A DNA stretch of 64,000 nt. Source: Candidatus Stackebrandtia excrementipullorum. GTDB taxonomy: Bacteria; Actinomycetota; Actinomycetes; Mycobacteriales; Micromonosporaceae. Location: assembly GCA_019113825.1 (NCBI GenBank), contig DXGR01000127.1, positions 1-64,000 on the forward strand, read 5' to 3'. The translations under genes and the position numbers were made by a program. Within the stretch, counting starts at the first letter, position 1; each line of letters begins with the position of its first letter. Below the pieces are notes generated by a model. The model had not been told where the DNA came from, did not search any database, and saw nothing but the letters and a program-made list of their open reading frames with translations. Positions 626 to 42,130 of this stretch are shown here, piece after piece.

Positions 626-730
626 GGGGGCCTCCAACCTCCGCCCCATAATTAGATCGTAATCGGCCCCGTACATACCGCGTCCACCTCTTTACTCGAA
701 GCCTGTGGACAACCGACCGAGGGTGGACAT
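626..730 (+). repeat. Dispersed intergenic element, copy A (22-nt box plus two DnaA-box-like 9-mers)
   Basis: Lies between two convergent genes. The 22-nt box at 626-647 reads GGGGGCCTCCAACCTCC then GCCCC and is identical to copies C (28622) and E (42109, minus strand). After 56 nt comes TGTGGACAA (704-712), the reverse complement of the actinobacterial DnaA box TTGTCCACA, and 18 nt further start-to-start comes the degenerate GGTGGACAT (722-730). The spacer holds TTAGATCGTA, which lines up with TGACCGTA of copies C and E. Confidence 0.7.
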
Positions 731-738
731 GATCGGGT

Positions 739-1713
739 CTACCGTGTCAACAGCACCTTCCCCACATGACCGCCCGCCTCCAACAGTTCGTGCGCGACGG
801 CCGCGTCCGACATCGGCATTCGCTTCGCGATCACCGGACGAACCAGGCCACGGGCCACGAACGGCCACACCTCGCGTGCCACCGCGTCGATGATCCGAAC
901 GCGGTCGCTCAGCACACGGCCTCGCAGCGCCGTGGCCGAGATCCTTCCCCGCTTGGCCAACAACGCTCCCAGATTCACCTCGGCTTTACGCCCGCCCTGC
1001 ATCCCGATGATGGCCAACCAGCCGTCCGGCGCCAAAGCGCGAATATTTCGCTCCAGATACGCCGCTCCCATGTTGTCGAGGATGACGTCCGCGCCACGTC
1101 CGTTCGTGAAGTCGCGTACCGCCGAAACGAAATCTTCGTCGCGGTAGTCGACGACCACGTCGGCGCCCAGACCTTCGAGCACATTTCGCAGTTCGGAACG
1201 AGCCGTCGCCACGACACGAGCATCCAACGCGGCCGCCATCTGAATGGCGGTGGTGCCGATGCCCCCGGCACCACCGTGGACCAGAAACGTGCGGCCACGA
1301 TCCAAGCCCGCGATGTCGAACACGTTCGACCACACCGTGGCGGCCGCCTCCGGCAGCCCCGCCGCATCCACAACGTCGATCCCACGGGGGATCGGCAACA
1401 CCAAGGAGGCATCCACCACGACCCGTTCGGCGTACCCCCCACCTGACAGAAGGGCGCAGACCTCGTCGCCCACCTGCCAGGCCGTCACATCCGACCCGAC
1501 GGCGGTGACGACACCCGAACATTCCAGCCCCAGAATCTCCGGTGCCCCGGGCGGAGGCGGATAATGCCCCTGCCGCTGCAGCAGATCAGCACGGTTGACC
1601 CCTGCCGCCGCCACCTCAATCAACACTTCACCCGGCCCCGGCACCACGTCCGGTACCTCGCGCCACTGCAACACCTGCGGTCCACCGAATTCGGTGATCT
1701 CCACTCCCAACAT
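739..1713 (-). CDS. NAD(P)H:quinone oxidoreductase, PIG3-type zinc-independent MDR family
   Basis: A 324-residue medium-chain dehydrogenase/reductase. The N-terminal catalytic half carries the QOR/PIG3 signature (AAGVNRADLLQRQGHYPPPPG, split around residues 36-56) and lacks the structural zinc cysteines of alcohol dehydrogenases. The Rossmann dinucleotide motif HGGAGGIGTTAIQ lies at about 146-158. The family transfers electrons from NADPH to quinones in the cytoplasm; the natural substrate is unknown. A -10 hexamer TAAGAT (1720-1725) sits 6 nt before the ATG, so the mRNA is probably leaderless. It is divergent from the WecB-type gene and has no obvious functional link to it. Confidence 0.9.
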   Translation of the reverse strand: MLGVEITEFGGPQVLQWREVPDVVPGPGEVLIEVAAAGVNRADLLQRQGHYPPPPGAPEILGLECSGVVTAVGSDVTAWQVGDEVCALLSGGGYAERVVVDASLVLPIPRGIDVVDAAGLPEAAATVWSNVFDIAGLDRGRTFLVHGGAGGIGTTAIQMAAALDARVVATARSELRNVLEGLGADVVVDYRDEDFVSAVRDFTNGRGADVILDNMGAAYLERNIRALAPDGWLAIIGMQGGRKAEVNLGALLAKRGRISATALRGRVLSDRVRIIDAVAREVWPFVARGLVRPVIAKRMPMSDAAVAHELLEAGGHVGKVLLTR

Positions 1714-1786
1714 CGCTCAATCTTAATTCGGGTATGTGCCCTCGCGATGAAACAAGGTTCTTGTGGCACCGGTATTCTCAGCTTCG

Positions 1787-2563
1787 ATGTCTGACCTTTC
1801 CCACACCCCAGGCCGGTTTCGTTGCTGCGGCGTCGTCATCGACGGCCACGCCCCGGACACCGCCACCGCGGCGCTGCTCGAGTCGCGCTACGGGACCCCT
1901 CGGGGCACGCACCTGTGTAATGCCTACACGCTTTCCCTCGCGCTGCGCGACGAGAAGTACCGGGCGATGCTCAACGAGGCCGACATCAACTTCTCCGACG
2001 GGCACTACCTGGCCAAGGTCGGCAAGAAACGCGGCCACGACGCCATGACCGAGCGGGTCTACGGGCCCGACCTCATGTACAACACGATGGACGCCGGTCG
2101 TGAACACGGACTCAAGCACTATCTGTACGGCGCATCACCTGAGACCGTCGCAAAATTGAAGACATCGTTGGAGGAAAAACTGCCCGGTGTCGACATCGTC
2201 GCCGCGGAGTCACCACCGTTTCGGGCCCTCACCACCGCCGAACTCGACGAGCTCGAGGACCGAGTCGCCGACGCCAAACCGGACCTGTTCTGGGTGGGGT
2301 TGGGGACCCCGAGACAGGACGAGTTCGTGGCTCTCCATACGAAACGGCTGCGCTGCACCCTTGTCCCGGTCGGCGCCGCATTCGATTTTTGGTCCGGGAA
2401 CAAACCGATGGCACCAAAGTTCGTGCAAAAGCACGGCCTGGAGTGGGCCTACCGTCTGGCGACCGAGCCGCGGCGGCTGTGGAAGCGGTATCTCATCGGC
2501 AACACCGCTTTCATTTACGGTGTCATCACCGATTCCCGCCGCAACAGGAAACTGGGGCCGTGA
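1787..2563 (+). CDS. WecB/TagA/CpsF family glycosyltransferase
   Basis: 258 residues when started at ATG 1787. An in-frame GTG at 1763 exists, but TATTCT at 1773-1778 followed by 8 nt and ATG fits a leaderless start. Family marks are the NFSDGHYLAK segment (catalytic Asp region), YGASPETV, VGLGTPRQDEF and the C-terminal basic region GLEWAYRLATEPRRLWKRYL, which in this family closes over the active site and docks to the membrane. These enzymes add N-acetylmannosamine-type sugars to undecaprenyl-linked intermediates for surface polymers. The LCP protein and GDP-fucose genes on either side support surface-glycan synthesis; the exact sugar is not predictable. Confidence 0.92.
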   Translation: MSDLSHTPGRFRCCGVVIDGHAPDTATAALLESRYGTPRGTHLCNAYTLSLALRDEKYRAMLNEADINFSDGHYLAKVGKKRGHDAMTERVYGPDLMYNTMDAGREHGLKHYLYGASPETVAKLKTSLEEKLPGVDIVAAESPPFRALTTAELDELEDRVADAKPDLFWVGLGTPRQDEFVALHTKRLRCTLVPVGAAFDFWSGNKPMAPKFVQKHGLEWAYRLATEPRRLWKRYLIGNTAFIYGVITDSRRNRKLGP

Positions 2564-2579
2564 CCACACCGTCGGCGCG

Positions 2580-3545
2580 TCAGCGTCGATACGAGTCCTC
2601 GTTGGCGAGGAACCAGTCGTAAACCCGTTGAATACCTTCGGCCAGATCGATCTTCGGTTCCCAGCCCAGCGCCCGTATCCGTGAAGAGTCCATCAGTTTG
2701 CTCTTCACTCCGTCGGGTTTCGAGAGATCGTGTGTGAAGGTGCCGTCGTAACCGATCACGTCGGCCATCATCGCCGCCAACTTGTTTATCTCGATGTCTT
2801 CGCCGGCACCGATGTTGATCGGTGCCGCACCATCGTAACGGCGCAGCAGGAACAACGCCGCGTCGGCAACGTCGTCGGCGTGGAGGAACTCCCGCAACGT
2901 CGTACCGGTCCCGTATATCAAGAAGCGCGGGTCGCCTGCCAGCTTCGCTTCATGCAGCCTGCGCATGATCATGGGAAACGCGTGCCCACCCGGTATGGAA
3001 AAGTTGTCCCCAAAGCCGTAAAGATTGCACGGCATCGCTGAAATGAACGAACAACCGAACTGTTGCCGCAACGCCTGCACATGCATAACACCGGTTATCT
3101 TCGCTATCGCATAACCGAAATTGGTCTGCTCCACCGGGCCCGTCATAAACGAATCCTCGGAAATGGGCTGCTGCGCATTCGTCGGGTATATACAACTCGA
3201 ACCCAAGAACAACGCGCGAGTAAGACCGAACTCTTTAGCGGCGTCCAGTATGTTGATCTGCATACGAATGTTGTCGGACAAAAAGTCCGCGGGAGCGGCG
3301 TCATTACCGTAAATCCCTCCCACTTTTGCCGCAGCATCGATCAAATAATCGGGCCGTTCCTGCGCGAAAAAATCAAAGGTCGCCTGACGGTCACGCAAGT
3401 CAAGCTCCGTACTGCGACGACCGATGAGATTACGGTACCCCTCCTCCTCAAAACGCCGCCAAATCGCCGACCCCACCATCCCCCGATGTCCGGCGATATA
3501 CACCTTGGCGTCCATCGGTATCTCGTGGCTGAAATCAGTCCGCAT
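2580..3545 (-). CDS. fcl: GDP-L-fucose synthase
   Basis: 321 residues, the usual length. An extended-SDR epimerase/reductase converting GDP-4-keto-6-deoxymannose to GDP-L-fucose with NADPH. Visible marks are the [10 protein letters not shown] nucleotide-binding loop, LGSSCIYP (catalytic Ser region), the YAIAK Tyr-x3-Lys catalytic pair, and [11 protein letters not shown]. The start at 3545 has a clear AGGAG ribosome site; the family-like Met 11 residues in (MDAKVYIAG) is an alternative. It is divergent from gmd, so the two steps of GDP-fucose synthesis share one 119-bp promoter region. Confidence 0.95.
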
Positions 3546-3664
3546 CGCTCACTCCTCTCCCTGGTTCGTCCGTGCAACCCTACCGGCCCACGACACCGGC
3601 GACCTCCACAACAAACACGTGTAGTCTCGACCGTCCGTGGTCACGAAAACGTAAAGGGATGAGG

Positions 3665-4693
3665 ATGTCACAACCCAGGCGCACCGCTTTGATCACTGGA
3701 ATCACCGGCCAGGACGGTTCCTACCTTGCCGAACTTCTCCTCTCGAAGGGCTACGAGGTTCACGGGATCATTCGACGTTCGTCGACCATTACGGGAAACA
3801 GTCGCCTCGACGGCATTTACCAGGCGCCCAACACCCCGGATCAAACATTGTTTCTCCATTACGGGGACATAACGGACGCCAGCATGTTGACCAACATCGT
3901 GCGCGACATCCAACCCGACGAGGTTTACAACCTCGCCGCCCAAAGCCATGTTCGGGTCAGTTTCGACATACCCGACTACACCGGCAACGTCGACGCCCTG
4001 GGAACAATCCGCCTGCTGGAAGCGCTGCGCGCCGCCGACTGCAACGCACGCTTCTACCAAGCCTCCTCCTCCGAACTTTACGGTTCCACCCCGCCGCCAC
4101 AGAACGAGGACACACGTTTCCACCCGCGCAGCCCGTACGCGGTCGCCAAGATTTACTCGTATTGGGCAGTGGTCAATTACCGGGAGGCTTACGGACTTCA
4201 CGCGTCGAACGGCATCCTGTTCAATCACGAAAGCCCTCGTCGCGGGGAAACCTTCGTCACCCGGAAGATCACTCGTGCGGTCGCCCGCATCGCCGCCGGC
4301 ATCCAAGACGTCGTCTACATGGGGAACCTAAACTCCATTCGCGACTGGGGATACGCTCCCGAGTACGTCGAAGGCATGTGGCGCATGCTCCAGCAGGACA
4401 CCCCCGACGACTATGTGTTGGCCACCGGCGAAGGATGCGTCATCCGCGACTTCGCGCAGGTGGCGTTCGCCCACGCGGGCCTGGACTGGGAAAAGCACGT
4501 CAAACACGACTCCAGGCACGAACGGCCATCTGAGGTGGACGCACTTATCGGCGACCCGTCCAAAGCGAAGAAACATCTTGGCTGGGAGGCCAAGACGCAT
4601 TGGCGTGAGCTGGCGGAACTCATGGTCGACGCGGACCGCCAATTGCTGGACGATCAGCTTTCCGGTCGCCTCGTCAAGGAAGAGCACGATTAA
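3665..4693 (+). CDS. gmd: GDP-mannose 4,6-dehydratase
   Basis: 342 residues from ATG 3665, chosen because AAGGG at 3654-3658 is 6 nt upstream; the ATG at 3659 would sit against that site. Extended SDR fold: [19 protein letters not shown] nucleotide loop near the N terminus, then SSSELYG and the catalytic YAVAK with Tyr and Lys, and the typical [19 protein letters not shown] segment. It makes GDP-4-keto-6-deoxy-D-mannose, the substrate of the divergent fcl product. Together they supply GDP-fucose, probably for the surface glycan handled by the nearby WecB-type and LCP enzymes (inference). Confidence 0.96.
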
Positions 4694-4703
4694 GGCAAGA
4701 GAA

Positions 4704-4736
4704 AGTCCCAGGCGATCGGTTGTTTCGCCTGGGACT
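4704..4736. terminator. Hairpin terminator shared by gmd and tRNA-Ser
   Basis: A 12-bp perfect stem (AGTCCCAGGCGA / TCGCCTGGGACT) with a 9-nt loop between the 3' ends of gmd (+) and the tRNA (-). T-rich sequence follows on the minus strand. Confidence 0.75.
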
Positions 4737-4749
4737 GGGGACTTCTTTG

Positions 4750-4838
4750 CGGAGGCGGTGGGATTCGAACCCACGAGACGTGTCGCCACGCCTGGCGGTT
4801 TTCAAGACCGCTGCACTAGTCCACTATGCGACGCCTCC
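4750..4838 (-). tRNA. tRNA-Ser (anticodon UGA)
   Basis: Read on the minus strand, the acceptor arm GGAGGCG pairs with CGCCTCC plus discriminator G. The anticodon stem-loop is GCGGTCTTGAAAACCGC with anticodon TGA. A long variable arm, as expected for tRNA-Ser, lies between the anticodon arm and the T arm (GTGGGTTCGAATCCCAC). No CCA is encoded. Confidence 0.95.
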
Positions 4839-4924
4839 CGGCGGTCGCCAACTTACCAAAACGTTCCACGAGCGAAACGCGCGCATTGTCGGGGTAGGGC
4901 CCGTTCGCGGTCTTGGGGTGTGAA

Positions 4925-5110
4925 TCACTCGTCTCGCTGCTCGTCGTCGGGCACTTCAATGGCCTGATCCACGACATCGGCCTCGCTTGCGTCACCACGA
5001 AGGATGGGGTCCGAGTCGACCGTGTCGTCACCTTCGTTGAACACCTCGGCTTCCTGATCGAGACGATCTTCGTCCGGTGCGTTCCAGTTTTCAGCTCGTT
5101 TATCCACCAC
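4925..5110 (-). CDS. Small acidic protein of unknown function
   Basis: 61 residues with many Asp and Glu and no membrane segment. The tail DPILRGDASEADVVDQAIEV resembles a short conserved pattern I associate with small actinobacterial proteins (D..EADxxxQ), but no function is known to me. The start is GTG 5110: TACCGT (5117-5122) lies 6 nt upstream, the leaderless pattern seen at other genes here; a second GTG follows at once. It lies between tRNA-Ser and the divergent fba gene. Confidence 0.6.
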   Translation of the reverse strand: MVDKRAENWNAPDEDRLDQEAEVFNEGDDTVDSDPILRGDASEADVVDQAIEVPDDEQRDE

Positions 5111-5228
5111 GTTTCGACGGTATCGGGTGAGCCGAGCGTCGGCAGGCTGTTCTGATGAAGCAGAATGCGAGGTGAGACAGCGCCGTCTTGCCGGGTTCGT
5201 CGAGCTGGTACGTAAGGAGCAGGAAAAA

Positions 5229-6251
5229 ATGCCTATCGCTACACCAGAGGTTTACGCCGGAATGTTGGACCGCGCCAAAGAGGGCGCGTTCGCGTATCCG
5301 GCCATCAACGTTTCGTCTTCTCAAACGCTCAACGCCGCGTTGGCCGGGTTCGCAGAGGCTGAAAGCGACGGCATCATCCAGGTTTCCACCGGCGGAAGCG
5401 AATACTTTTCGGGTCCGACCGTCAAGGACATGGTGACCGGGGCGACGGCGTTCGCCGCGTTCGCTCACGAGGTGGCCGCGAAGTACCCGGTCAACATCGC
5501 TCTGCACACCGACCACTGCCCGAAGAACAAGCTTGACGACTTCGTGCGTCCGCTGCTGGATATTTCGGCGCAACGTGTCAAGGCGGGTCAGAACCCGCTG
5601 TTCCAATCACACATGTGGGACGGCTCGGCGGTTCCGTTGAAGGAAAACCTTCTCATCGCCGAGGAACTGCTGGCCCAGGCGGTGGCCGCGAACATCATTC
5701 TCGAAATCGAGGTTGGTGTGGTCGGCGGCGAGGAGGACGGCGTCGTCGGTGCTATCGACGATAAGCTCTACACCACCGTCGAAGACGGTTTGGCCACGGC
5801 CGCAGCGTTGGGGGTTGGCGAAAAGGGCCGCTACATGACCGCGCTGACCTTCGGCAACGTGCACGGTGTCTACAAGCCGGGCAACGTGAAACTTCGTCCC
5901 GAGATTTTGAAGGACATCCAGAAGGCCGTTGGTGAGAAGTACGGCAAGAACAAGCCGTTCGACCTCGTCTTCCACGGTGGTTCCGGTTCGCTGCTCGAGG
6001 AGATCCGTGCGGCACTGGATTACGGTGTCATCAAGATGAACGTCGACACCGACACCCAGTACGCGTTTACTCGGCCCGCGGCAGCGCACATGTTCACCAA
6101 CTACGACGGTGTTTTGAAAATCGACGGCGAGGTCGGCAACAAGAAGACCTATGACCCGCGTGCGTGGGGCAAGGTCGCAGAAGCCGGCATGGCGCAGCGC
6201 ATCGTCAAGGCCTGCGAAGACCTGCGCTCGGTGGGGACCACCGCACGTTAA
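5229..6251 (+). CDS. fba: Class II fructose-bisphosphate aldolase
   Basis: 340 residues from ATG 5229, preceded by AAGGAG at 5214-5219. A zinc-dependent glycolytic and gluconeogenic enzyme that cleaves fructose-1,6-bisphosphate to DHAP and glyceraldehyde-3-phosphate. Motifs are LHTDHCPKNKLDDF (catalytic Asp and zinc His), EIEVGVVGGEEDGV, FGNVHGVYKPGNVKL (zinc His), FHGGSGS (phosphate and zinc His) and MNVDTDTQYAFTRP. This is the long class IIa form usual in actinobacteria. It stands alone and ends at a strong hairpin. Confidence 0.97.
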   Translation: MPIATPEVYAGMLDRAKEGAFAYPAINVSSSQTLNAALAGFAEAESDGIIQVSTGGSEYFSGPTVKDMVTGATAFAAFAHEVAAKYPVNIALHTDHCPKNKLDDFVRPLLDISAQRVKAGQNPLFQSHMWDGSAVPLKENLLIAEELLAQAVAANIILEIEVGVVGGEEDGVVGAIDDKLYTTVEDGLATAAALGVGEKGRYMTALTFGNVHGVYKPGNVKLRPEILKDIQKAVGEKYGKNKPFDLVFHGGSGSLLEEIRAALDYGVIKMNVDTDTQYAFTRPAAAHMFTNYDGVLKIDGEVGNKKTYDPRAWGKVAEAGMAQRIVKACEDLRSVGTTAR

Positions 6252-6265
6252 CGAGAAGACATCAC

Positions 6266-6297
6266 ACGGCCCGGCCATCGCGGTCGGGCCGTGTTTT
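6266..6297 (+). terminator. Intrinsic terminator after fba
   Basis: An 11-bp stem (ACGGCCCGGCC / GGTCGGGCCGT, one G-U pair) with a 5-nt loop, followed by GTTTT. Confidence 0.85.
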
Positions 6298-6735
6298 CCA
6301 TGGGTTCCGACACGCCGAAACATTTCACCGATGATTCCGCCGCGCCATGGCCAACGGGCCGATGAAGACCGCGGTCTGGCCGCAGACGGCGAGGCCGTGT
6401 CGTTATTTATGTGATCTTGCCCCTACTGCGATCCGGGATTCGTTCGGGGTTTTATATCGCTTTGGCTGTTATGTCGGTTGTCAACGGCGGCACGGTTAGC
6501 GTCCCCGAGCAGGGTGTCACCCCGCCGACCCTCACGGGGTTTTGACGGCGATCGGTACCCTTGAAACGGATCGATTGATCCACCAATGTGTCCTTACGAT
6601 CCGTCACGGTAACCGGTACGCACCGGGCGAGCTCTTGCTCACACATCGGCTGACCTGCGTCTTCGTCCGGTTGCGGACCGACGGAGGAGGGCACGGCCGT
6701 GTTACCCTTGACACAGCGAAAGGGGTTTCGATCCT
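6298..6735. other. Long gene-free region upstream of carD
   Basis: No convincing gene is seen here. It contains a possible promoter (TTGTCA near 6477 with TTAGCG about 17 nt downstream) and a weak hairpin followed by T's near 6524-6543 (ACCCCG / CGGGGT then TTT), which could bound a short transcript or leader. TTGACA lies just before the carD ribosome site. All of this is tentative. Confidence 0.35.
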
Positions 6736-7221
6736 ATGGGTTTTAGTGTCGGCGAGACCGTTGTTTACCCCCATCACGGGGCCGCACTCATCGAAGCAGT
6801 CAAGACTCGCAACATCGGAGGCGTGGAACGGGAATACCTCGTTCTACGTATCGAGCAGGACGACTTGACGATTCAAGTCCCGGCAACCAATGTTGAGATG
6901 GTAGGCGTCCGCGAAGCCGTGGGCACCGAGGGTCTGACCCAGGTTTTCGATGTGTTGCGTGCTCCGCACACAGAAGAACCGACCAACTGGTCTCGGAGAT
7001 TCAAGGCGAACCAGGAAAAGCTCGCGTCCGGTAATCCGTTCAAGGTGGCGGAAGTCGTACGGGACTTGTGGCGACGTGATCGCGAGCGCGGCCTGTCTGC
7101 GGGTGAGAAACGGATGCTCACCAAGGCTCGTGACATCCTGGCAGGCGAGCTGGCCTTGGCGGAATCCAGCACGAAGGATGACGCCGAATTGCTTCTGGAC
7201 AAGGTTCTCACCGAAGCGTAA
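6736..7221 (+). CDS. carD: CarD family RNA polymerase-binding transcription factor
   Basis: 161 residues. The N-terminal half ([22 protein letters not shown] and on to about residue 55) is the CarD/TRCF RNA-polymerase beta-binding domain. The C-terminal helical half ([39 protein letters not shown]) is the DNA-binding part containing the conserved Trp that wedges into the upstream edge of the transcription bubble. CarD stabilises open complexes, especially at rRNA promoters, and is essential in mycobacteria. AAGGGG lies about 10 nt before the ATG. IspF follows after a terminator, an arrangement common in actinobacteria. Confidence 0.95.
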
Positions 7222-7286
7222 TGCTTTTTCGAACGACCGTCGGCGATCTTTCGCCACGGTCGATGGTGTCCTGAGTTCGATGCATT

Positions 7287-7320
7287 GACGAGGAGCCCCC
7301 GTCACGGTGGGCTCCTCGTC
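7287..7320 (+). terminator. Hairpin terminator after carD
   Basis: A 12-bp perfect stem (GACGAGGAGCCC / GGGCTCCTCGTC) around a 10-nt loop; no long T-run follows. Confidence 0.75.
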
Positions 7321-7385
7321 ATGTTCCATACGGTCGCCGGGACGTGAGTCGTTCGGTTTACCGACCGCCGGTAGGCTGTCCGATC

Positions 7386-7859: not shown

Positions 7860-7934
7860 TCCGACAACCTTCCGAGGCCCACGTGGGTGTCCGACGGCCC
7901 CGACGTGTTGAAGCAGTCCCGTACCTCTGAGTCG

Positions 7935-8041
7935 GGGGGCCACCATCCTCCTCCCCGATGGTTGAAGCCTATCGTGAGCCGTTCGTGAGCCATCAAATCT
8001 TTTAACCCGCCTCCTGTGGAAAACCGCTTCGTCGTGGACAA
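7935..8041 (+). repeat. Dispersed intergenic element, copy B
   Basis: The box at 7935-7956 (GGGGGCCACCATCCTCC then TCCCC) is followed by GATGGTTGAAGCCTATCG, nearly identical to copy D at 34750. TGTGGAAAA (8015-8023, complement TTTTCCACA) starts 58 nt after the box and CGTGGACAA (8033-8041) 18 nt later. The second 9-mer is just upstream of the probable -10 of the TPR gene (TACCCT, 8074-8079). Confidence 0.65.
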
Positions 8042-8086
8042 CAGCACCACGATCTCGCCGAATGCGAGACGGTTACCCTTCATTGC

Positions 8087-9097: not shown

Positions 9098-9117
9098 CCC
9101 GCAGCGAGGGCCGCATG

Positions 9118-9486: not shown

Positions 9487-9567
9487 GAATCGGCTCCTGG
9501 ATGAGATGGGGGCTGGTGACACCAGGATATCCGAGTCGGTTGAGCAGACCGGGTTTCGTTGCGGCCC

Positions 9568-10974
9568 TTACACGGCCATGTCGACAAACCTGGACAGGTG
9601 AAGCTGCGCGGCAACGGTGATCGTATCGGTGGCACCGTTTCGGTGTTTGGCAACGATGAAGTCCGCTTCACCGGCGCGGGGTGATTCCTTGTCGTAGTAG
9701 TCGTCCCGGTGGAGCAATATGACGACGTCGGCGTCCTGTTCAAGGCTGCCCGATTCACGCAGATCGGACAGTTGAGGTCGTTTATCGGTACGTTGTTCGG
9801 GTCCACGGTTAAGCTGCGCGACGGCGATAACCGGGCACTCGACCTCTTTGGCCAGCAGTTTCATACCACGGGATATCTCAGAGACTTCTTGTTGTCGGCT
9901 CTCGACGCGCTTGGGCGAGCTCATCAGCTGCAGATAGTCGACCACGATCAGTTTGAGATTGTGCCGTTGTTTAAGCCTGCGAGCTTTGGCGCGAATCTCC
10001 ATGAGTGTCATGGACGGCGTGTCGTCCACAAACAAGGGTGCTTCGGCGATTTCACCCATGCGACGGGCAAGTCTTGTCCAGTCGTCATCGGAGAGGTCAC
10101 CGGAGCGTAGGACGTGGAGCGGCACGCGGGTCTCTGCTGACAGGACGCGCATCACAATCTCCACTTTGCTCATTTCGAGGGAGAACATGGCGGCGGCCTG
10201 CTGATGGTGCAGAGAGGCATGGCGGATGAAGTCCATGGCGGCCGTCGATTTTCCTGCACCAGGTCGGCCTGCGACGATGATGAGCTGCCCCGGTTGAAGA
10301 CCGTTGAGCAAGCGGTCGAGGTCCGCGAAACCGGTGGGGACACCCGTCATAGCGCCGCCGGCCTCGCCGACGGCTTCGATCTCGTCGAGGGTGGGCTGAA
10401 GAAGCTCGGACAGTACCGAGAAGTCTTCACTGACTCGCCGCTCGGTGACGTCGTACACGGCTTGTTGTGCCATGTCGACAAGGTCGTCGATGTCCCGGCC
10501 GCCACCGGCGGCCGTGCCGTATCCGAGCTGCACGACTCGGGTGCCGGCCTCGATGAGGCGACGCAACACGGCTCGCTCGGAAACGATGCGGGCGTAATAC
10601 GACGCGTTGGCAGCTGTGGGGACCGATGAGATCAAAGTGTGAAGGTAGGGACCTCCGCCGATCTTGCCCAGGTCTCCGGCGTCGGCGAGTGCGGCGGCCA
10701 AGGTGATGGCGTCGGCAGGTTCCCCTCGCGCGTACTTGTCGCAGATCGCGTCGAAGATGATCGCGTGCGCTGGCTTGTAGAAATCCTCGGTGTTGAGGAT
10801 TTCTACAACGTCGGCGATGGCGTCTTTGCTGAGCAGCATCCCGCCGAGGGTGCACTGTTCTGCGAGGACGTCCTGCGGGGGAGTGCGTTCGAACTCAACG
10901 CTGGGTTCCGGAGGAAGAGGATCGTTGTCGTGCGAGGCGGACCGCTGCCTGGCATTGGTGGCATGATCGTCCAT
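9568..10974 (-). CDS. dnaB: Replicative DNA helicase DnaB
   Basis: 468 residues: primase-interacting N-terminal domain (PPQDVLAEQCTLGGMLLS onward), linker helix, then a RecA-like motor with Walker A GRPGAGKST at about 236-244, LFSLEMSKVEIVMRVLSAET, a Walker B segment (LKLIVVDYLQLM), and the DNA-binding and arginine-finger region QQEVSEISRGMKLLAKE. Hexameric 5'-3' helicase at the replication fork. No intein is present. It is usually the last gene of rpsF-ssb-rpsR-rplI-dnaB; here a divergent membrane-protein gene and a DnaA-box cluster separate it from rplI. Confidence 0.97.
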   Translation of the reverse strand: MDDHATNARQRSASHDNDPLPPEPSVEFERTPPQDVLAEQCTLGGMLLSKDAIADVVEILNTEDFYKPAHAIIFDAICDKYARGEPADAITLAAALADAGDLGKIGGGPYLHTLISSVPTAANASYYARIVSERAVLRRLIEAGTRVVQLGYGTAAGGGRDIDDLVDMAQQAVYDVTERRVSEDFSVLSELLQPTLDEIEAVGEAGGAMTGVPTGFADLDRLLNGLQPGQLIIVAGRPGAGKSTAAMDFIRHASLHHQQAAAMFSLEMSKVEIVMRVLSAETRVPLHVLRSGDLSDDDWTRLARRMGEIAEAPLFVDDTPSMTLMEIRAKARRLKQRHNLKLIVVDYLQLMSSPKRVESRQQEVSEISRGMKLLAKEVECPVIAVAQLNRGPEQRTDKRPQLSDLRESGSLEQDADVVILLHRDDYYDKESPRAGEADFIVAKHRNGATDTITVAAQLHLSRFVDMAV

Positions 10975-11079: not shown

Positions 11080-11220
11080 TGTGGATAACCATGTGGATAA
11101 CCTGTGGATAACCATGTGGATTCTGTGGATAACCATGTGGGCAAACTGTGGATGACGCAGGCAGTGCCCATTTTCTTTGGCCTGTGAACTGCTGTTCCTT
11201 TATCCACAGGCTGTGGATAA
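11080..11220. promoter_or_regulatory. Cluster of DnaA boxes upstream of dnaB
   Basis: Six perfect E. coli-type DnaA boxes (TTATCCACA or its complement TGTGGATAA) lie at 11080-11088, 11092-11100, 11103-11111, 11124-11132 (all reading TGTGGATAA on +), 11200-11208 (TTATCCACA on +) and 11212-11220 (TGTGGATAA). One- or two-mismatch variants fill the gaps: 11115-11123 (TGTGGATTC), 11136-11144 (TGTGGGCAA), 11147-11155 (TGTGGATGA); another TGTGGATGA is at 11300. The first seven are spaced 9-12 nt, about one helical turn. The cluster lies between divergent dnaB and a small membrane-protein gene. Confidence 0.85.
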
Positions 11221-28602: not shown

Positions 28603-28725
28603 GAGGCCCCCACGAACCTTCGGGGGCCTCCAACCTCCGCCCCTACTTTTGACCGTACCGGGTTCATCCTGAAGGCAGCCTTAAGCCGTCTACAGGGCTG
28701 TGGACAACCGTTCGTCGGTGGAAAC
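28603..28725 (+). repeat. Dispersed intergenic element, copy C, with hairpin
   Basis: Between convergent genes. The box at 28622-28643 is identical to copies A and E. GAGGCCCCC (28603-28611) pairs with the start of the box, GGGGGCCTC (28622-28630), giving a 9-bp hairpin that may end the Fe-S reductase transcript. TGACCGTACCGGGTT and CCTGAAG in the spacer match copy E. TGTGGACAA is at 28699-28707 and the degenerate GGTGGAAAC 18 nt later (28717-28725). Confidence 0.7.
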
Positions 28726-32208: not shown

Positions 32209-32231
32209 ATGTTTGTGACGCGAAAATCGCA

Positions 32232-34312: not shown

Positions 34313-34327
34313 GAAGTAATCCGACCT

Positions 34328-34370
34328 CGCTGGTCCGTCCCATGCCGGACGACCAGCGGGGCATCTTTTT
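34328..34370 (+). terminator. Intrinsic terminator after cspA
   Basis: CGCTGGTC (34328-34335) pairs with GACCAGCG (34351-34358), with inner pairing in the loop, followed by ATCTTTTT. A second hairpin (GGTGGCCG...CGGCCACC) lies near 34386-34422. Confidence 0.85.
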
Positions 34371-34839
34371 GTCTTCACCCACACCGGTGGCCGCCGACCA
34401 GGTGGGGCGTCGACGGCCACCGTTCTACAACCGAACGGCTACATCTCCGCTCGGAAGAGTCCTCTGATCACCCCGCCCAAGGTCAGATGATCGGCATCGT
34501 GATTCCTTCCATACGCTGCGCCGCATGGGATTACCCGCTGAGTCCATACACGAAACGTTCGACTCTCAGGCCATCTCGGACACTCTGTTTCATACGGCTG
34601 TGCGTGGCCACCTGAAAAGGCCGGAACCCAGGGTGGAGAGGCCTCATCATCCCCTCGCGGTCGGTTGTTCACACTCCCGACAGTTATGCACATGACCAAG
34701 AAAACAGGCTTGACCGGTCACGCCTCGCACTCGATAGGCTGAAGCCATCGGGGAGGAGGATGGCGGCCCCCAAGGCGTTTCCAAGAAGGTCGCCTCACCG
34801 GCGCGGTGATCTATGACGGCACCGTACGGCCTGGTGCCC
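34371..34839. other. Gene-free region between cspA and the alpha/beta hydrolase
   Basis: Contains the second hairpin near 34386-34422 and repeat copy D (34665-34771). An 86-codon open frame on the minus strand (34439-34699) overlaps the DnaA-box-like 9-mers and shows no protein-like features; it is not called. Confidence 0.5.
34665..34771 (-). repeat. Dispersed intergenic element, copy D
   Basis: The minus-strand box (34750-34771) reads GGGGGCCGCCATCCTCC then TCCCC and continues GATGGCTTCAGCCTATCG, matching copy B in about 36 of 40 positions. TTATGCACA (34684-34692, a consensus TTATNCACA DnaA box) follows after 57 nt, and TTGTTCACA (34665-34673) 19 nt further. Confidence 0.65.
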
Positions 34840-35550: not shown

Positions 35551-35618
35551 ACGCTGAATCGTACGACGCCGCCGCACTCGAGCTCGGCTCGGTGACGCGG
35601 CACGGGCGACGTCCCGCG

Positions 35619-36548
35619 TCAGCCTCCGCTGGTACGTAGGCGGGCCAGCCATGCTGCGGCGTCGGCGAAGTCGCGGTCGGCCAGACCTCGGGGTGGTGGG
35701 ATCGGACCGTCGCCACCGTCACGCGGGTAGGAGCCCAGGTACTGCACCTGTGCACACACTCGTTTAAGCCCGGTCAGGGCTTCGCCGACTCGCTCGTCCG
35801 CAATGTGCCCGGTGCAGTCCAGGTAGAAGGCGTATCTTCCCAATCGTTCGCCGGTCGGGCGTGATTCGATACGCGTCAGATTGACGCCGCGCACCGACAG
35901 TTCGCTGAGGACCGTCAACAGCGCGCCGACTTCGTCGTGTGCTATGTAGACGACCAGCGAGGTGACGTCGTTGCCCGACGGAGGTGCCGGCGGTAGGGGC
36001 CGCGACACGAGAGCGAACCGAGTTTGAGCTCCAGGGTTGTCCGCGATATCGGATTCCACAACGGTGAGACCGTTGTGTTCGGCTGCCAACGGTGCGCATA
36101 CACAGGCGTCGGCTTTACCGTTCGACACCGCTTCGGCGGCGGCTGCCGTGGACAGTGTCTCCACCGTCGTAACAGCCGGATACTTCATCCGCAGAAATCT
36201 ACGGACCTGAGCCAGCGCGTGCGGATGCGACGCAATGGTGGCCACCTCGCCTCCGGTGACACCCGCAAGAACGAATTCCACCGGCAGCACCACTTCGGCG
36301 GTGATCACGAGCGGTTCCCCGGACACGAGCGAGTCCAGTGTCACCGCCACCGAACCCTCGATCGAATTCTCGATGGGGACCAGCGCCGCATCGGCGTCAC
36401 CGCCACGGACGGCTTCCAAGGCTTCGGGCACGTTCCGCATCGGGATGCGGTTGCCACGTTGGGCTGCGGGAAGCGTAAGCAATGCGGCTTCGGTGAAGGT
36501 ACCGGCGGGCCCGAGATAAGCGAACCTTGATGGTGGGACTCCAGGCAT
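35619..36548 (-). CDS. pheA: Prephenate dehydratase
   Basis: 309 residues: periplasmic-binding-like catalytic domain (RFAYLGPAGTFTEAALLTL, VPIENSIEGSVAVTLD, SNGKADACVCAPLAA, DIADNPGAQTRFALVSR with the catalytic Thr-Arg-Phe) and a C-terminal ACT domain for phenylalanine feedback (HDEVGALLTVLSELSVRGVN, RIESRPTGERLGRYAFYLD). Converts prephenate to phenylpyruvate. TAGCCT (36556-36561) is 7 nt before ATG 36548, so the mRNA is probably leaderless. Confidence 0.96.
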   Translation of the reverse strand: MPGVPPSRFAYLGPAGTFTEAALLTLPAAQRGNRIPMRNVPEALEAVRGGDADAALVPIENSIEGSVAVTLDSLVSGEPLVITAEVVLPVEFVLAGVTGGEVATIASHPHALAQVRRFLRMKYPAVTTVETLSTAAAAEAVSNGKADACVCAPLAAEHNGLTVVESDIADNPGAQTRFALVSRPLPPAPPSGNDVTSLVVYIAHDEVGALLTVLSELSVRGVNLTRIESRPTGERLGRYAFYLDCTGHIADERVGEALTGLKRVCAQVQYLGSYPRDGGDGPIPPPRGLADRDFADAAAWLARLRTSGG

Positions 36549-36593
36549 GGCTAACAGGCTAGACCCTGCGGTGACACATGACGCCGTGCGGCG

Positions 36594-37016
36594 TTACAAC
36601 CGCCGCGGTCGGCGCGCGAGCCCGCCTTGACACCATTCTTTGTAATCGAACAGGTCCGGATCCGAAATGAGTGCCTTGGTGTTGTGAACCCACAACGAGA
36701 CCCAGGCATCACCGTACTTGTCTGCTCGATCCAGTAGCTTGCGAAGCTTCCGTTTCGGGTGGGCGCGGAAACCGGTCCGTACGGCGTCGGCTGCGTACAG
36801 GTAAAGACAGTGCAACGCGAACGTGCGCTTGGGGCACATCGGGTCGGCTGCAAGCTCGACCAGCGTCGGCATCAACGGGTCGTCCGCCAAGAGAAGATCC
36901 CATTGTGCGGACGTCTGTGGGGGGCCCGCGGTGGGGTCGTTCGCCCACGCGCGCAGCTCCGCGGGTGTCGGATTGACCGCGCTGGCGAAGCCGGCGAACA
37001 CCACTGGCTCGTGCAT
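36594..37016 (-). CDS. Conserved protein of unknown function near purL
   Basis: 140 residues from ATG 37016, chosen because GGAGGG lies about 8 nt upstream; a longer frame starts at 37103. Begins MHEPVVFAGFASAVNPTPAE and contains LAADPMCPKRTFALHCLYLYAAD and a basic patch (RAHPKRKLRKLLDRADKYGD). It looks like a soluble helical actinobacterial protein; I do not recognise a domain. It follows purL on the same strand after 153 nt. Confidence 0.65.
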   Translation of the reverse strand: MHEPVVFAGFASAVNPTPAELRAWANDPTAGPPQTSAQWDLLLADDPLMPTLVELAADPMCPKRTFALHCLYLYAADAVRTGFRAHPKRKLRKLLDRADKYGDAWVSLWVHNTKALISDPDLFDYKEWCQGGLARRPRRL

Positions 37017-37169
37017 GCGGCAACCCTCCACGTCGACACCGTTTGCGTCAACATAATCGGGTTGGCCATCCACCGCTACCACGGGAGCCGGAACGTCACC
37101 CAACCGATACGCGGCCTCGGACGATCACCTGGCCGTGTCCAACCACAATCGGCGAGATCTTCTGGCCGG

Positions 37170-39482
37170 TCAGGCGACGGTTGGCGCCGGGTGTCCGAAC
37201 CTGTTCGGGATGGTCGACTCCGAGGCGTGTCTCAATTCCGCCAGCGGGACCGAGAACAGTCCGTCCACATCCAGTCCGTCGTACTCGGTGTCGACGATGC
37301 CCAACGGCACCCAGTCGACGCCGTGTTCTTCGCACAGCGCCCGCACGGCTGCCTCGTGCCCCTTGGGAACGGTGATGACCGCTCTGGCCGTGGACTCGCT
37401 GAACAAGGCCACGAAGGGCTCCAGGTCGTCGGGCAACCGCACATGGGCGCCGACACCGTGACGCAGCACGGATTCGACCAACGTCTGAGCCAGACCACCG
37501 TCGGAGACGTCGTGAGCGGCCGACACGTGTTCGAATTCGGCTGCTCGACGTATCACCAGCGCGAGTGCCTGTTCAGCGGCGAGGTCGACGGCCGGGGGCG
37601 TTCCTCCCAGGTGACGGTGTTCGTGCCACGCCCATTCGGATCCGGACAGTTCGGTTTCAGTGGTGCCCAACATGATGATGCGGTCGCCGTCGCCGACGAA
37701 GCCCATCGGTATACGGCGGGCGACGTCGTCCAGGACACCGAGCACACCGACAACCGGGGTCGGGTGAATCGCGATAAGTCCCGTCTGGTTGTAGAAACTG
37801 ACGTTTCCTCCGGTGACGGGCAGTTCGAGCTCGGCGGAGCCGTCGGCGAGACCGCGAACGGTTTCGGCGAAGCTCCACATGACCTCGGGGTCTTCGGGCG
37901 ACCCGAAGTTGAGGCAGTTGGTGAGGGCGATCGGCGTCGCACCGGTGACCGCGACGTTGCGGAACGCCTCGGCCAGGGCCAAGCGGGCGCCCTGGTACGG
38001 GTCGAGCCTGCTGTAGCGGCCGTTGCCGTCGGTGCTGATCGCGATGCCGAGCCCACTGTCTTCCGACAGCCGAATGATCCCGGCGTCGTCGGGTTGCGCC
38101 AGAACCGTGTTACCCCGCACGTAGCGGTCATACTGCTCGGTGATCCAGGTCTTGGATGCGAGGTTGGGGGATGCCACCATTCGCAGTAGCGTCGCCCGTA
38201 GTTCGTCGTGTTCGGACGGGCGCGAGAGGGTCTCGGCTCGGTCGACGACGATCAGGTCGCGGTCGGCGGGGACACGCATGGGACGGTGATAGACCGGTCC
38301 CTCGTCGGCGAGGCTCTCGGGTGGGCAGTCGACAACGGTGGCGCCGTGCCAGTCGATGATCAGACGGCCGCCCGATTCAGCGGTCGCGGCCGTTACCTCA
38401 CCGATGGCGGTGGCCAGAACGCCCCATTTCCGCGCCACCTTCAAAACTTCATCCAGTTTGGGTGGTTCGACGATGAGAAGCATGCGTTCCTGCGACTCAC
38501 TGGCCAGGATTTCGTGGGGATGCATCGAAGCTTCCCGCAACGGCACTTTTTCAAGATCGACGTGCATGCCGAGTCCGGCTGCGGCGGCGGTCTCGGACAA
38601 GGCGCAGGTCAGGCCCGCTCCACCCAGGTCCTGGATACCGGAGACCAGACCGGCGTCAAACATTTCCAAACAGGATTCGATGAGCAGTTTTTCGATGAAG
38701 GGGTCACCGACCTGGACGCTCGGTCGAGCCGCCTCGGCGTCGTCCCCGAACGTCGCCGACGCGAGCACCGAAACTCCGCCGATACCGTCGCGCCCGGTTT
38801 TAGCTCCCAAAAGGACTACTACATTGCCGACGCCGGACGCGGCCATGTTCTGTAGACGGCTGACCGGCAGAACACCCACACACAGTGCGTTCACCAGGGG
38901 GTTTCCCTGGTAGCAGGGGTCGAAAACGACCTCTCCGCCGATGTTGGGAAGACCGAGGCTGTTGCCGTACCGCGAGATCCCCTCGACGACTCCGGGCAGT
39001 ACCCGGGCGGTGTCGGGATGGTCGATGTCGCCGAATCTCAACGGGTCCATGACCGCGATCGGTCGTGCACCCATCGCCAGGATGTCTCGAACGATCCCGC
39101 CAATGCCGGTGGCCGCACCTTGGTGTGGCTCGATGAAACTCGGGTGGTTGTGGCTTTCCACCTTGAAGCTGACGGCGATGTCGTCGGCGACCTGCACGAC
39201 TCCGGCGTTCTGGCCGATGCCGGCCAGGAGCCGGTCGCTCTGTGGGCTTTTCTCGGCGAAATGTTTAAAGTGCACACGGCTCGATTTGTAGGAGCAGTGT
39301 TCACTCCACATGATCGAGTACATCGCGAGCTCGGCCTGTGTCGGACGACGTCCCAGAATCTTGCGAATCCGGTCGTACTCGTCTTCGAGCAGGCCAAGGT
39401 CGGCATAGGGCTGCGCCTCGTCCGGCGTCGCGTGTGCACGGCCTACGGTGTCGACGACACCGGTTTTTTCTTTGGAGTTCAT
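37170..39482 (-). CDS. purL: Phosphoribosylformylglycinamidine synthase subunit PurL
   Basis: 770 residues, the small PurL that works with PurS and PurQ. It uses ATP and ammonia from PurQ to convert FGAR to FGAM. Motifs: [12 protein letters not shown] near the N terminus, [51 protein letters not shown], and in the C half [11 protein letters not shown] and [13 protein letters not shown]. Its ATG overlaps the purQ stop (39479-39482), so translation is coupled. Confidence 0.97.
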
Positions 39483-40159
39483 ACGGTCGCCCCCAGATGC
39501 GCCAGAACGGACGCGAATACGCCCAGGCCGTCGGTGGACGGCCCGGTCAAGGCCTCAACGGCGTGCTCGGGGTGAGGCATCATCCCGACCACGTTTCCGG
39601 CTGCGTTGGTGATGGCGGCGATGTCTCGCTGTGAACCGTTGGGGTTGCCGCCGATGTACCTGGCAACCACTCGTCCTTCGCCTTCCAACGCGTCAAGGGT
39701 CGCCCGGTCCGCTACGTAGCAGCCTTCCCCATTCTTCACGGGCACGACGACGCGGGCGCCCTCACCGAAGGAACGTGTCCAGGCGGTGTCTGCGTTGACG
39801 ATTTCCAACCACTGGTCGCGGTTACGGAAATGCAGTTCCCGGTTGCGGGTCAACGCACCCGGCAGCAAATGCGATTCACACAGGATCTGGAAACCGTTAC
39901 AAATGCCCAGAACCGGAAGACCGGCGTCAGCGGCGTCCACGATCGTCTCCATAACGGCCGAGAACCGTGCGATCGCGCCGCACCGGAGATAATCACCGTA
40001 GGAGAAACCCCCCGGGAGGATGACCGCGTCGACTCCCCTCAACGCCGTGTCGTCATGCCACAGTGACACCGGAGTGGCTCCGGCGAGCCTGACGGCTCGG
40101 GCGGCGTCGACGTCGTCCAGGGAACCCGGGAACGTCACCACACCGATGCGCGGGCTCAT
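39479..40159 (-). CDS. purQ: Phosphoribosylformylglycinamidine synthase subunit PurQ
   Basis: 226 residues, class I glutamine amidotransferase. Nucleophile in [13 protein letters not shown] (Cys), substrate motif [15 protein letters not shown] at about 50-65, and the His-x-Glu of [11 protein letters not shown] near the C terminus. It supplies ammonia to PurL. Overlaps purS by 4 nt upstream and purL by 4 nt downstream. Confidence 0.97.
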
Positions 40160-40422
40160 CCGGCCGACTCCGATGTTTCGGGAAGCCGGACGGTGAAGTC
40201 TTCGATGACCGGGTTGGCCAACAGTTTGTCGGCGATGTCGGCGGCTTGTTCCCGCATCGCGGCTTCGTCGGTACCTTCGGCGAATTCCAGTTCGATGCGT
40301 TTGCCGATCCGCACGGACGACACCGCACCGACCCCGAGACGAGGCAGCGCGTTCACCACTGCTTCACCTTGAGGGTCCAGAATTTCCGGCTTGAGCATGA
40401 CGTCGACGACGACGCGCGCCAC
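40156..40422 (-). CDS. purS: Phosphoribosylformylglycinamidine synthase subunit PurS
   Basis: 88 residues, first gene of purSQL; GTG start with AGGAG upstream. [20 protein letters not shown] and [11 protein letters not shown] are the ferredoxin-like fold of PurS, which bridges PurL and PurQ. The promoter must lie in the 118 nt between it and purB. Confidence 0.95.
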
Positions 40423-40540
40423 GGCCCGCTCCTGTCGCTAGATGAAATTTCCCGAACATAAGAATATGCGCAGTTGACGTGTTCGCCCATCCGACCCCGG
40501 CATCATGGCGTGCGTCTCAATGAAGCCGGACCACGGGGCG

Positions 40541-41968
40541 CTACAGGATGGCCGCGGGATCGTATGCCGCCGCCTCCGGATGCACTGCGATTACTTCGTT
40601 CACGCGCGCCACCACTGTTTCGACCTGTGCGGCGGCTGCACCGGTGAAGCTCAGCGGCACGTCGATCAACCGCCCAAGCGTGTTGCGATCCAGACCGAGT
40701 CGCGCGTCGGTGGCGAGGCGATCCAGCAGGTCGTTGTCGGTGGTGCCCTGTTCACGCATCGACAGGGCTACCGCGACGGCGTGTTCCTTGATCGCCTCGT
40801 GGGCGGTTTCTCTGCCGACTCCGGCGCGCACCGCGGCCAAAAGAATCTTGGTGGTCGCCAAGAACGGCAGGTACCGGTCCATTTCACGGGCAATGACAGC
40901 CGGGTAGGCACCGAACTCGGACAGGACCGTCAAAAACGTCTGGTAGAGGCCGTCGGCGGTGAAGAACGCGTCGGGGAGGGCGACTCGCCGTACCACCGAA
41001 CACGAGACGTCGCCTTCGTTCCATTGACTGCCGGCCAGTTCCGCGGTCATGGAGGCGTATCCGCGAAGCAACACCATCATGCCGTTGACGCGTTCGGTGG
41101 ATCGGGTGTTCATCTTGTGCGGCATCGCGGAAGAGCCGACCTGTCCGGCTTGGAAACCTTCGGTGGCGAGTTCGGCCCCGGCCATCAACCTGATGGTCGT
41201 CGACAATGACGATGGCGCCGCGGCTGCTTGCACGAGTGCCGAAACGACGTCGTAGTCCAGAGACCGCGGGTATACCTGGCCGACGCTGTCGAGAGTCCGT
41301 GAGAACCCCAGGTGTGTCGCGACACGCTGTTCGAGCTCGGCCAGTTTGGTCGCGTCGCCGTCGAAGAGGTCCAGCTGGTCGGCGGAGGTCCCGACAGGTC
41401 CCTTGATGCCGCGAAGCGGATAGTGTTCCAGTAGCCGGTTCACCCGCCCGTAGGCGTCCAGCAGCTCTTCCGCGGCGGTCGCGAACCGTTTTCCCAGTGT
41501 GGTGGCCTGTGCCGGAACGTTGTGGGACCGTCCCGTCATGGGGAGCGCGTTGTGCAGGACGGCGAGCTGCCCGAGCCTTGCCAATGCTGCGACCATGCGA
41601 TCGCGGACGAGAACAAGTGCATCCTTGATCTGCAGTTGCTCGACGTTCTCGGTGAGGTCACGACTGGTCATGCCCTTGTGGATGTGTTCGTGGCCGGCGA
41701 TGGCACTGAACTCTTCGATGCGGGCCTTGACGTCGTGGCGGGTGATCTTTTCTCGTTCGGCGATGGAGACCAGGTCGACGTTGTCGAGGACTCGCTCGTA
41801 GTCGTCGACAACCCCGTCGGGCACAGCCACGCCCAGATCGGACTGCGCTTTCAAGACCGCCACCCACAGGCGCCGTTCGGCACGGACCTTGGCGACGGGT
41901 TCCCAGAGTGCGATCATTTCGGCCGAGGCGTAGCGCGAAGCCAGAACGTTGGGTATCACGCGGCCCAT
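40541..41968 (-). CDS. purB: Adenylosuccinate lyase
   Basis: 475 residues, fumarase/aspartase superfamily. Signature loop VGSSAMPHKMNTRSTERV with the catalytic Ser, and early residues NVLASRYASAEMIALW. It acts twice: SAICAR to AICAR and adenylosuccinate to AMP. Same strand and directly upstream of purSQL. Repeat copy E lies upstream of its start. Confidence 0.96.
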   Translation of the reverse strand: MGRVIPNVLASRYASAEMIALWEPVAKVRAERRLWVAVLKAQSDLGVAVPDGVVDDYERVLDNVDLVSIAEREKITRHDVKARIEEFSAIAGHEHIHKGMTSRDLTENVEQLQIKDALVLVRDRMVAALARLGQLAVLHNALPMTGRSHNVPAQATTLGKRFATAAEELLDAYGRVNRLLEHYPLRGIKGPVGTSADQLDLFDGDATKLAELEQRVATHLGFSRTLDSVGQVYPRSLDYDVVSALVQAAAAPSSLSTTIRLMAGAELATEGFQAGQVGSSAMPHKMNTRSTERVNGMMVLLRGYASMTAELAGSQWNEGDVSCSVVRRVALPDAFFTADGLYQTFLTVLSEFGAYPAVIAREMDRYLPFLATTKILLAAVRAGVGRETAHEAIKEHAVAVALSMREQGTTDNDLLDRLATDARLGLDRNTLGRLIDVPLSFTGAAAAQVETVVARVNEVIAVHPEAAAYDPAAIL

Positions 41969-42016
41969 TGTTCCTCAGTCGGCCGGGTCACATCGACGGA
42001 CGCAGCGTCTCGCGGG

Positions 42017-42130
42017 TTTTCCACAGGCGCGACTTGTCCACAGCCTGAACGACGACCCGACCTCCACTTCAGCAAGGCTTCAGGAAAACCCGGCTACGGT
42101 CACAGTATGGGGCGGAGGTTGGAGGCCCCC
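42017..42130 (-). repeat. Dispersed intergenic element, copy E
   Basis: Box on the minus strand (42109-42130) identical to copies A and C. The spacer TGTGACCGTAGCCGGGTTTT and CCTGAAG parallel copy C. TTGTCCACA (42034-42042) follows after 66 nt and TTTTCCACA (42017-42025) 17 nt later, both good DnaA boxes. The element lies in the divergent region between purB and the Hsp70-like gene, the only divergent copy. Confidence 0.7.

Follow-up and report, generated by a model that had tools for sequence, protein, structure and literature searches.

What is the element that recurs five times between the genes of a 64,000-nucleotide stretch of Candidatus Stackebrandtia excrementipullorum (GenBank assembly GCA_019113825.1, contig DXGR01000127.1, positions 1 to 64,000; hereafter the window)? 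A first-pass annotation had described a 22-nt G/C box accompanied by two 9-mers resembling DnaA boxes and had proposed a family of DnaA-binding elements. All five boxes and their 9-mers were found when the window sequence was checked; shuffles predict 0.01 boxes, and no further box was detected with up to three mismatches. The single internal orientation and the two box subtypes (type I, copies A, C, and E; type II, copies B and D) were confirmed as well. Read in the direction of that annotation, the element made no sense, while the opposite strand did. Our tentative answer is that the copies form a new promoter family, controlled by DnaA or by a regulator, for RNAs with a G-quadruplex head, and that these short RNAs would act in trans as a sponge.

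Promoter layout and distribution of the box

On the opposite strand, the element consists of a -10 hexamer, TANNNT, followed after 7-10 nt by GGGG[N]GGAGG[NN]GG[N]GG[N]CCC. We analyzed five genomes of the genus, G000 (the window genome, 4.17 Mb), G001 (S. albiflava DSM 45044), and G002 to G004, in which 65 places match the type I/II box with at most two mismatches. One of them, G004:5905643, was omitted as a chance match and later shown to lack the -10, leaving 64 copies. TANNNT lies 7-10 nt upstream of the GGGG in 63/64 of these, against a rate of 1.3% in the rest of that upstream DNA, the sole exception being L148 in S. albiflava. It is also present in 41/41 distinct type IV copies of S. albiflava (44 before copies identical over -15..+30 were merged), in six type III copies, and in one type V copy. 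In a bacterial promoter, a -10 element keeps its distance to a conserved start, and by sequence this arrangement is present at 63/64 and 41/41 of these places. Types III and V stand outside the 64-copy -10, DnaA-box, 95-box G-tract, stem-pairing, and 101-copy counts; L148 was left out of the 95-box G-tract counts, the stem-pairing, -7-signature, and shuffled-loop counts, and the 101-copy DnaA-spacing counts. In addition, a -35-like CTGGAC or CTCGAC is found 18-20 bp upstream of the -10 in 46/83 copies with DnaA-type boxes. In Mycobacterium tuberculosis, the TANNNT centre lies 7-12 bp upstream of mapped starts, as stated in an excerpt of PMC3898074.

The box is shared with a second phylum, Bacteroidota, where 35 copies were reduced to 32 by merging those identical over -20..+25. 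There, A at -11 combined with TT at -8/-7 occurs in 23/32 distinct copies, as compared to 3.9% in the background. The flavobacterial -7 box, TAnnTTTG, spans -12 to -5 according to a portion of PMC9723704. The two promoter codes, the -10 of the genus and the -7 of the Bacteroidota, would both place the start of transcription (+1) at the first G of the box. Of all single arguments for the box as the likely 5' end of an RNA, this agreement is the strongest. Because the -10 stands at a near-fixed distance ahead of it, the 22-nt box probably corresponds to the first 22 nt of that RNA, with promoter activity being predicted.

Allowing a relaxed linker raised the number of copies in the window genome from 13 exact boxes to 14, of which 6 lie on the 94-kb contig that also carries dnaA at 86 kb. 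The same relaxed pattern gave 14, 62, 1, 17, and 11 copies in G000 to G004, respectively, and none in seven other genomes of the family; reversed controls gave none in all twelve. A profile search of 121 family genomes under strict filters returned matches with E <0.001 only within the genus. In a named genome collection, the exact type I/II box was found in 44 stretches, including 17 in S. albiflava, 21 in nine Bacteroidota genomes, and 6 single matches elsewhere, which by inspection lack the upstream signals. The Bacteroidota carriers include Flavobacteriia, Cryomorphaceae, Phaeocystidibacter luteus, and a Chitinophaga-named metagenome-assembled genome, among others. In drawn samples the box was rare: 2/395 genomes of the phylum of a Bacteroidota centre genome and 2/299 of an order carried it, and each pair included the centre itself. 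Within the phylum of the window, 25/396 genomes match the relaxed pattern. In the 395 other actinobacteria, 24 genomes hold 27 relaxed matches versus 57 reversed-control matches, and the -10 was found at 0/19 of the loci inspected.

The G-rich head

Across 95 boxes, a single mismatch falls on the 12 G positions, as compared to 41 on the 7 remaining fixed positions. Apart from that one mismatch, the four GG tracts required for a two-layer G-quadruplex are kept in these boxes, and they are kept in the other linker types, in searches that favour G. Profile and relaxed searches recovered the linkers TC, AGT, AAC, and CA with intact G tracts, giving the heads GGAGG-TC-GGTGG, GGAGG-AGT-GGCGG, GGAGG-AAC-GGAGG, and GGAGG-CA-GGAGG; the second of these is found in 44/62 S. 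albiflava copies. The initial GGGG can pair with the tail in all 136 copies examined, through four C in 134/136 and through three C and a U in 2/136.

ViennaRNA, run with quadruplexes allowed, predicted a two-layer G-quadruplex for 6/6 heads tried, with energies of -13.7 to -18.6 kcal/mol as compared to -2.9 to -9.9 without the quadruplex. Types I, II, IIb, IV, and V are predicted to place it inside a four-pair GGGG:CCCC stem, and type III to fold in another register on a two-pair stem. Shuffled loops matched the real fold in 0.022 (type I) and 0.016 (type II) of cases, while the hairpin without the quadruplex was no better than shuffles. Linker positions 11 and 15 covary in 76/95 copies (shuffles, at most 60); because the signal is weak over distinct boxes (11/22, 0.058), we gave it no weight.

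Beyond about +26, there is little or no conservation and no common sequence by eye, and no letter is strongly preferred in the genus at +23 to +26. By eye, the members of four orthologous pairs (L001/L116, L003/L021, L008/L115, and L013/L117) differ past the head, and the idea of a guide RNA with a conserved handle and a variable spacer was dropped for this reason. An antisense target of the core was also rejected for G000, G003, and G004, where matches outside the elements (one mismatch) about equalled the reversed control; in two Bacteroidota genomes, the antisense scan gave a small excess over the reversed control (about 6 versus 2 and 4 versus 1). Searched against Rfam 15 at the gathering threshold, the window returned only two tRNA matches, and 18 element loci taken down to E 5 returned only mir-3130, at one place on both strands (E 1.2 and 4.4).

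Some heads have features of their own. In the Bacteroidota metagenome-assembled genomes G061 and G064 (e.g., L050, L051, L073, L137, and L141), type-specific GCAAG or GGAGTT-like letters follow the head, a possible extension of it. Six type II copies (L002, L005, L006, L009, L011, and L020) show by eye an inverted repeat across the start, GCCAT...ATGGC, which in L009 reads ACCAT...ATGGT, a compensated change; none was seen by eye in type I. The type IV head, AGTGGCGG, is amplified to 44 places in S. albiflava (e.g., L229-L239), with copies near-identical over the stretch that runs from the -10 through the head, and divergent in the DNA upstream.

Upstream modules and the copies in the window

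We defined a DnaA-type box as TTNTCCACA with at most one mismatch and counted it in the 101 genus copies that have a -10 and uncut upstream DNA; three type IV copies, which lack the box because their upstream DNA is cut, were excluded. At least one DnaA-type box is present in 83/101 copies. In 78/83 it starts between -70 and -58, and the start of the proximal box lies 49-51 bp upstream of the -10 in 77/78, at exactly 50 bp in 54. Typical starts are -82 and -64, in a single orientation, with neighbouring boxes 18 bp apart in 31/40 cases. The opposite strand upstream gave 3 matches in 64 copies, and the 100 nt downstream gave 4. Among the uncut distinct type IV copies of S. albiflava, 37/38 carry at least two DnaA-type boxes. 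Because these boxes are so rigidly placed and keep one orientation, DnaA may plausibly be linked to expression. The 9-mer TTGTCCACA is the high-affinity DnaA box of M. tuberculosis and Streptomyces coelicolor, as given in an excerpt of PMC4285127.

The proposal of a DnaA element is supported by the rigid placement of DnaA-type boxes in 83/101 genus copies and is not supported as to the core of the family, as the box persists without them in 18/101 genus copies and in 32/32 distinct Bacteroidota copies. By genome, DnaA boxes are missing from 0/14 copies in the window genome, 4/19 in G001 (including L148), 1/1 in G002, 6/18 in G003, and 8/12 in G004. Copies lacking the 9-mers as often as carrying them, which the first-pass annotation had named as grounds for refutation, are thus found in G004 and not in the window genome, where all 14 copies carry one or more and 8 carry two. 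Among the 18 DnaA-box-free genus copies, 13 carry at least three TTNAG-type repeats with 11-bp spacing, and CTTNAG-like words start mostly at -31, -42, -52, and -62. This 11-bp-type spacing is that of OmpR/PhoB-type sites. Many genus copies combine both kinds of repeat. The modules are interchangeable in the genus: DnaA-type boxes, TTNAG-type repeats, or both. The Bacteroidota copies are mostly preceded by TAAACGTTTA pairs. Judging from these motifs, DnaA and an OmpR/PhoB-type regulator may bind the modules and activate transcription.

In the window, copies A, B, and C read on the minus strand, and copies D and E on the plus strand; 9-mers are given on the G-rich strand. Copy A has its predicted type I RNA head, GGGGCGGAGGTTGGAGGCCCCC, at 626-647 (+1 at 647), the -10 hexamer TACGAT at 656-661, 8 nt upstream of GGGG, a proximal DnaA-type box, TTGTCCACA, at 704-712 (start -65), and a weak distal 9-mer, ATGTCCACC, at 722-730. 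In copy B, the predicted type II head, GGGGAGGAGGATGGTGGCCCCC, at 7935-7956 (+1 at 7956), is preceded by TAGGCT at 7966-7971, 9 nt upstream of GGGG, and by proximal and distal DnaA-type boxes, TTTTCCACA at 8015-8023 (start -67) and TTGTCCACG at 8033-8041 (start -85). The predicted type I head of copy C, at 28622-28643 (+1 at 28643), follows TACGGT at 28652-28657 (8 nt upstream), two CTTNAG repeats with 11-bp spacing (-31 and -42) at 28669-28685, which are response-regulator-like and would be bound by such a protein, a proximal TTGTCCACA at 28699-28707 (start -64), and a weak distal GTTTCCACC at 28717-28725. Copy D comprises a distal DnaA-like box, TTGTTCACA, at 34665-34673 (start -85), a proximal one, TTATGCACA, at 34684-34692 (start -66), TAGGCT at 34735-34740 (9 nt upstream), and the predicted type II head at 34750-34771 (+1 at 34750). 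Copy E comprises a distal DnaA-type box, TTTTCCACA, at 42017-42025 (start -92), a proximal TTGTCCACA at 42034-42042, whose start at -75 is 11 bp beyond the usual one and outside the counted range, two CTTCAG repeats with 11-bp spacing (-42 and -31) at 42067-42083, TACGGT at 42095-42100 (8 nt upstream), and the predicted type I head at 42109-42130 (+1 at 42109).

Two DnaA boxes per copy, as first described, hold at one mismatch or less for three of the five; the weak distal 9-mers of copies A and C have more than one mismatch to TTNTCCACA and were excluded from the DnaA-box counts. Because the window contains many single 9-mers at one mismatch (29 found versus 13.4 expected), the weight of the argument rests on their fixed placement and not on their presence.

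A gene for an Hsp70-like protein of 920 aa (42300-45062) lies directly downstream of copy E, which faces the gene start. At L004, the element stands by eye in the sense direction just upstream of an ABC-transporter-like reading frame, and in its orthologues L112, L118, and L132 an open frame also spans the element. Separately from the five copies, six exact TTATCCACA boxes, five on the minus and one on the plus strand, cluster tightly at 11080-11220, immediately ahead of a gene for a DnaB-type helicase (9568-10974, minus strand) and about 75 kb from dnaA; they could form a second DnaA-binding locus or serve dnaB autoregulation. Outside the window, at contig positions 87314-87657 (L150, G000:C114:80001-94169), dense DnaA-type boxes just after the dnaA match likely mark oriC.

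Competing readings and their consequences

In the explanation we tentatively favour, each copy would be a stand-alone promoter made of an upstream control module, a -10, and the 22-nt head, with transcription starting at the first G of the box. DnaA and an OmpR/PhoB-type regulator would bind the upstream modules and activate, and the RNA head would fold as a two-layer G-quadruplex on the GGGG:CCCC stem. The short RNAs would serve as multi-copy carriers of the head, their bodies mattering little, and the heads, presumably the working part, would act in trans by sponging one partner, a protein or a ligand. DnaA activity together with a signalling pathway would in this way set the free level of the partner. 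The divergence past the head at the four orthologous pairs, and the lack of a prominent gene family among the 25 commonest neighbour families of each phylum, favour the head over the body as the part that matters.

Known systems resemble parts of this arrangement. CsrB and RsmX-Y-Z are sponge RNAs that have regulated promoters and a repeated G-rich hairpin motif, and they sequester CsrA. The element would share with them the regulated promoters and one repeated G-rich motif, and it would likewise sequester a partner; however, it would have one head per RNA and has no conserved terminator. A sponge for CsrA itself was rejected, as CsrA was found in 0/16 genomes by a search whose control detects it in Escherichia coli, Bacillus subtilis, and Thermotoga maritima. 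DnaA boxes also lie upstream of the DnaA-controlled dnaA and nrdAB promoters, while the predicted product here is a non-coding head, in many copies with one geometry. Mango, Spinach, and sc1 similarly seat a quadruplex on a short stem; they are selected or eukaryotic, whereas this would be a natural bacterial 5' end. Searches of the open-licence literature for the box letters, for DnaA with small RNA in actinobacteria or Stackebrandtia, and for bacterial small RNAs with RNA quadruplexes found no such element among the papers listed.

Several observations weigh against the promoter-and-sponge explanation. Its transcription side is wholly predicted from sequence, and 9/32 Bacteroidota copies lack the A-11/TT-8/-7 signature. 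A terminator after the head was found in 1/30 Bacteroidota copies (0.2 expected), and none is conserved, which leaves the length of the RNA undefined. In 5/83 DnaA-type copies, including copy E, no box falls in the usual range. The quadruplex itself is a prediction, the shuffled-loop test is weak for type IV (0.116), and the boxes were collected with patterns and a profile favouring G positions, which caps their total divergence. A8 and T12 are near-constant in types I and II, and a bare quadruplex needs neither. In Bacteroidota, conservation extends to +25 (G at +23 in 25/32, A at +25 in 28/32), so the head may be longer than 22 nt. The positions of copy E and L004 ahead of reading frames indicate that not all copies need be stand-alone. 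Finally, a body of little importance fits a cis-acting element too.

Such an element is the main rival, though in our view a rather unlikely one. Transcription from the DnaA- or regulator-controlled promoter through the G-rich start would leave an R-loop and free the G strand, and the DNA quadruplex at that place would recruit replication, recombination, or chromosome-organizing proteins, as proposed for pilE of Neisseria gonorrhoeae. An excerpt of PMC3547852 describes a small RNA there that begins within the G-quadruplex-forming sequence and whose downstream sequence can be changed without effect; the element would resemble pilE in both respects. The constant G tracts with partly variable linkers seen here fit the cis reading, too. 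In N. gonorrhoeae, pilE is one locus serving pilin recombination, whereas we found up to 62 dispersed copies in two other phyla. The element further differs in its two-G tracts on a predicted GGGG:CCCC stem and its DnaA or regulator modules, and its RNA is a predicted one. Position speaks for an action in cis: element loci of sister species align with 8/14 window-genome loci but not with the other 6, for example L118, L132, and L112 with L004, and box type can differ at aligned loci. Copies also lie nearer to dnaA than random, at a mean distance of 708 kb versus 1416 expected in G003 (P 0.00016) and 1085 versus 1710 kb in G004 (P 0.018), while contig C1 of G001 (38% of the genome, without dnaA) holds 4/62 copies versus 23 expected. 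This claim relies on G001, G003, and G004, because the P value of the window contig is biased, the finding having been chosen from it. However, orientation relative to the fork follows no rule (9/19 and 12/16), and in types I and II the constancy of A8, T12, and the C tail nearly equals that of the G tracts, which exceeds what a bare DNA quadruplex needs. Nor does a gene family recur beside the copies, as expected of silent cassettes: among the 25 commonest families each, at most 3/87 Bacteroidota and 6/78 S. albiflava neighbour proteins share one, the latter being common GNAT acetyltransferases (scanned proteins, 87 of 107 and 78 of 84 listed open reading frames, were selected by the author).

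Titration or reactivation of DnaA, where the G-rich box would be an accessory site for a protein, is improbable. The copies resemble datA, DARS, and dispersed DnaA-box clusters in having DnaA-type boxes outside oriC, and the high copy number of S. albiflava, where most copies have two such boxes, together with the bias towards dnaA, lends some support to the titration role first suggested for them. In contrast to datA and DARS, the spacing between the boxes and the -10 is fixed, a constraint that a pure titration site could do without, and other repeats replace them in some copies; the genus and Bacteroidota copies without DnaA boxes keep the G-rich box all the same.

We regard as quite improbable that the box is a double-stranded DNA operator or roadblock, such as a terminator or insulator for an adjoining gene end, with the -10-like hexamer as part of the protein site. 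In 17/21 Bacteroidota copies with a called gene, the gene that follows the head is directed towards it, which fits this possibility, but the same arrangement is found in only 36/62 genus copies (rough gene calls). Similarly, the GCCA(T)...(A)TGGC inverted repeat seen by inspection around the head in several type II/IV copies is absent from type I, the most frequent type among the 95 boxes. One DNA-binding protein would also leave unexplained the two phylum-specific promoter codes ahead of the box. A recently mobile repeat (a miniature inverted-repeat transposable element, a repetitive extragenic palindrome, or another transposon end) would account for dispersed copies, the amplification of one type to 44 in one species, and the six window-genome copies without an element at the aligning sister locus, but is hardly credible given the eight positions that recur despite diverged flanks, the absence of matches in viral contigs in two exact scans, and the lack of transposases among the 25 commonest neighbour families per phylum.

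Returning to the promoter-and-sponge explanation, we put forward, with still more reserve, that the element represents a previously undescribed class of bacterial RNA. It would have a natural quadruplex as its 5' head on a four-pair stem, near letter-for-letter the same in Actinomycetota and Bacteroidota, behind the control proper to each lineage. In Stackebrandtia, that control would be DnaA itself, acting at up to about 60 origin-biased non-coding promoters. If this is true, DnaA would govern a large non-coding regulon as its transcription factor, and the old question of how the initiator communicates with other parts of the cell would become directly testable. A natural, conserved RNA quadruplex head with recognizable promoters in two distant phyla would also provide a handle on its partner.

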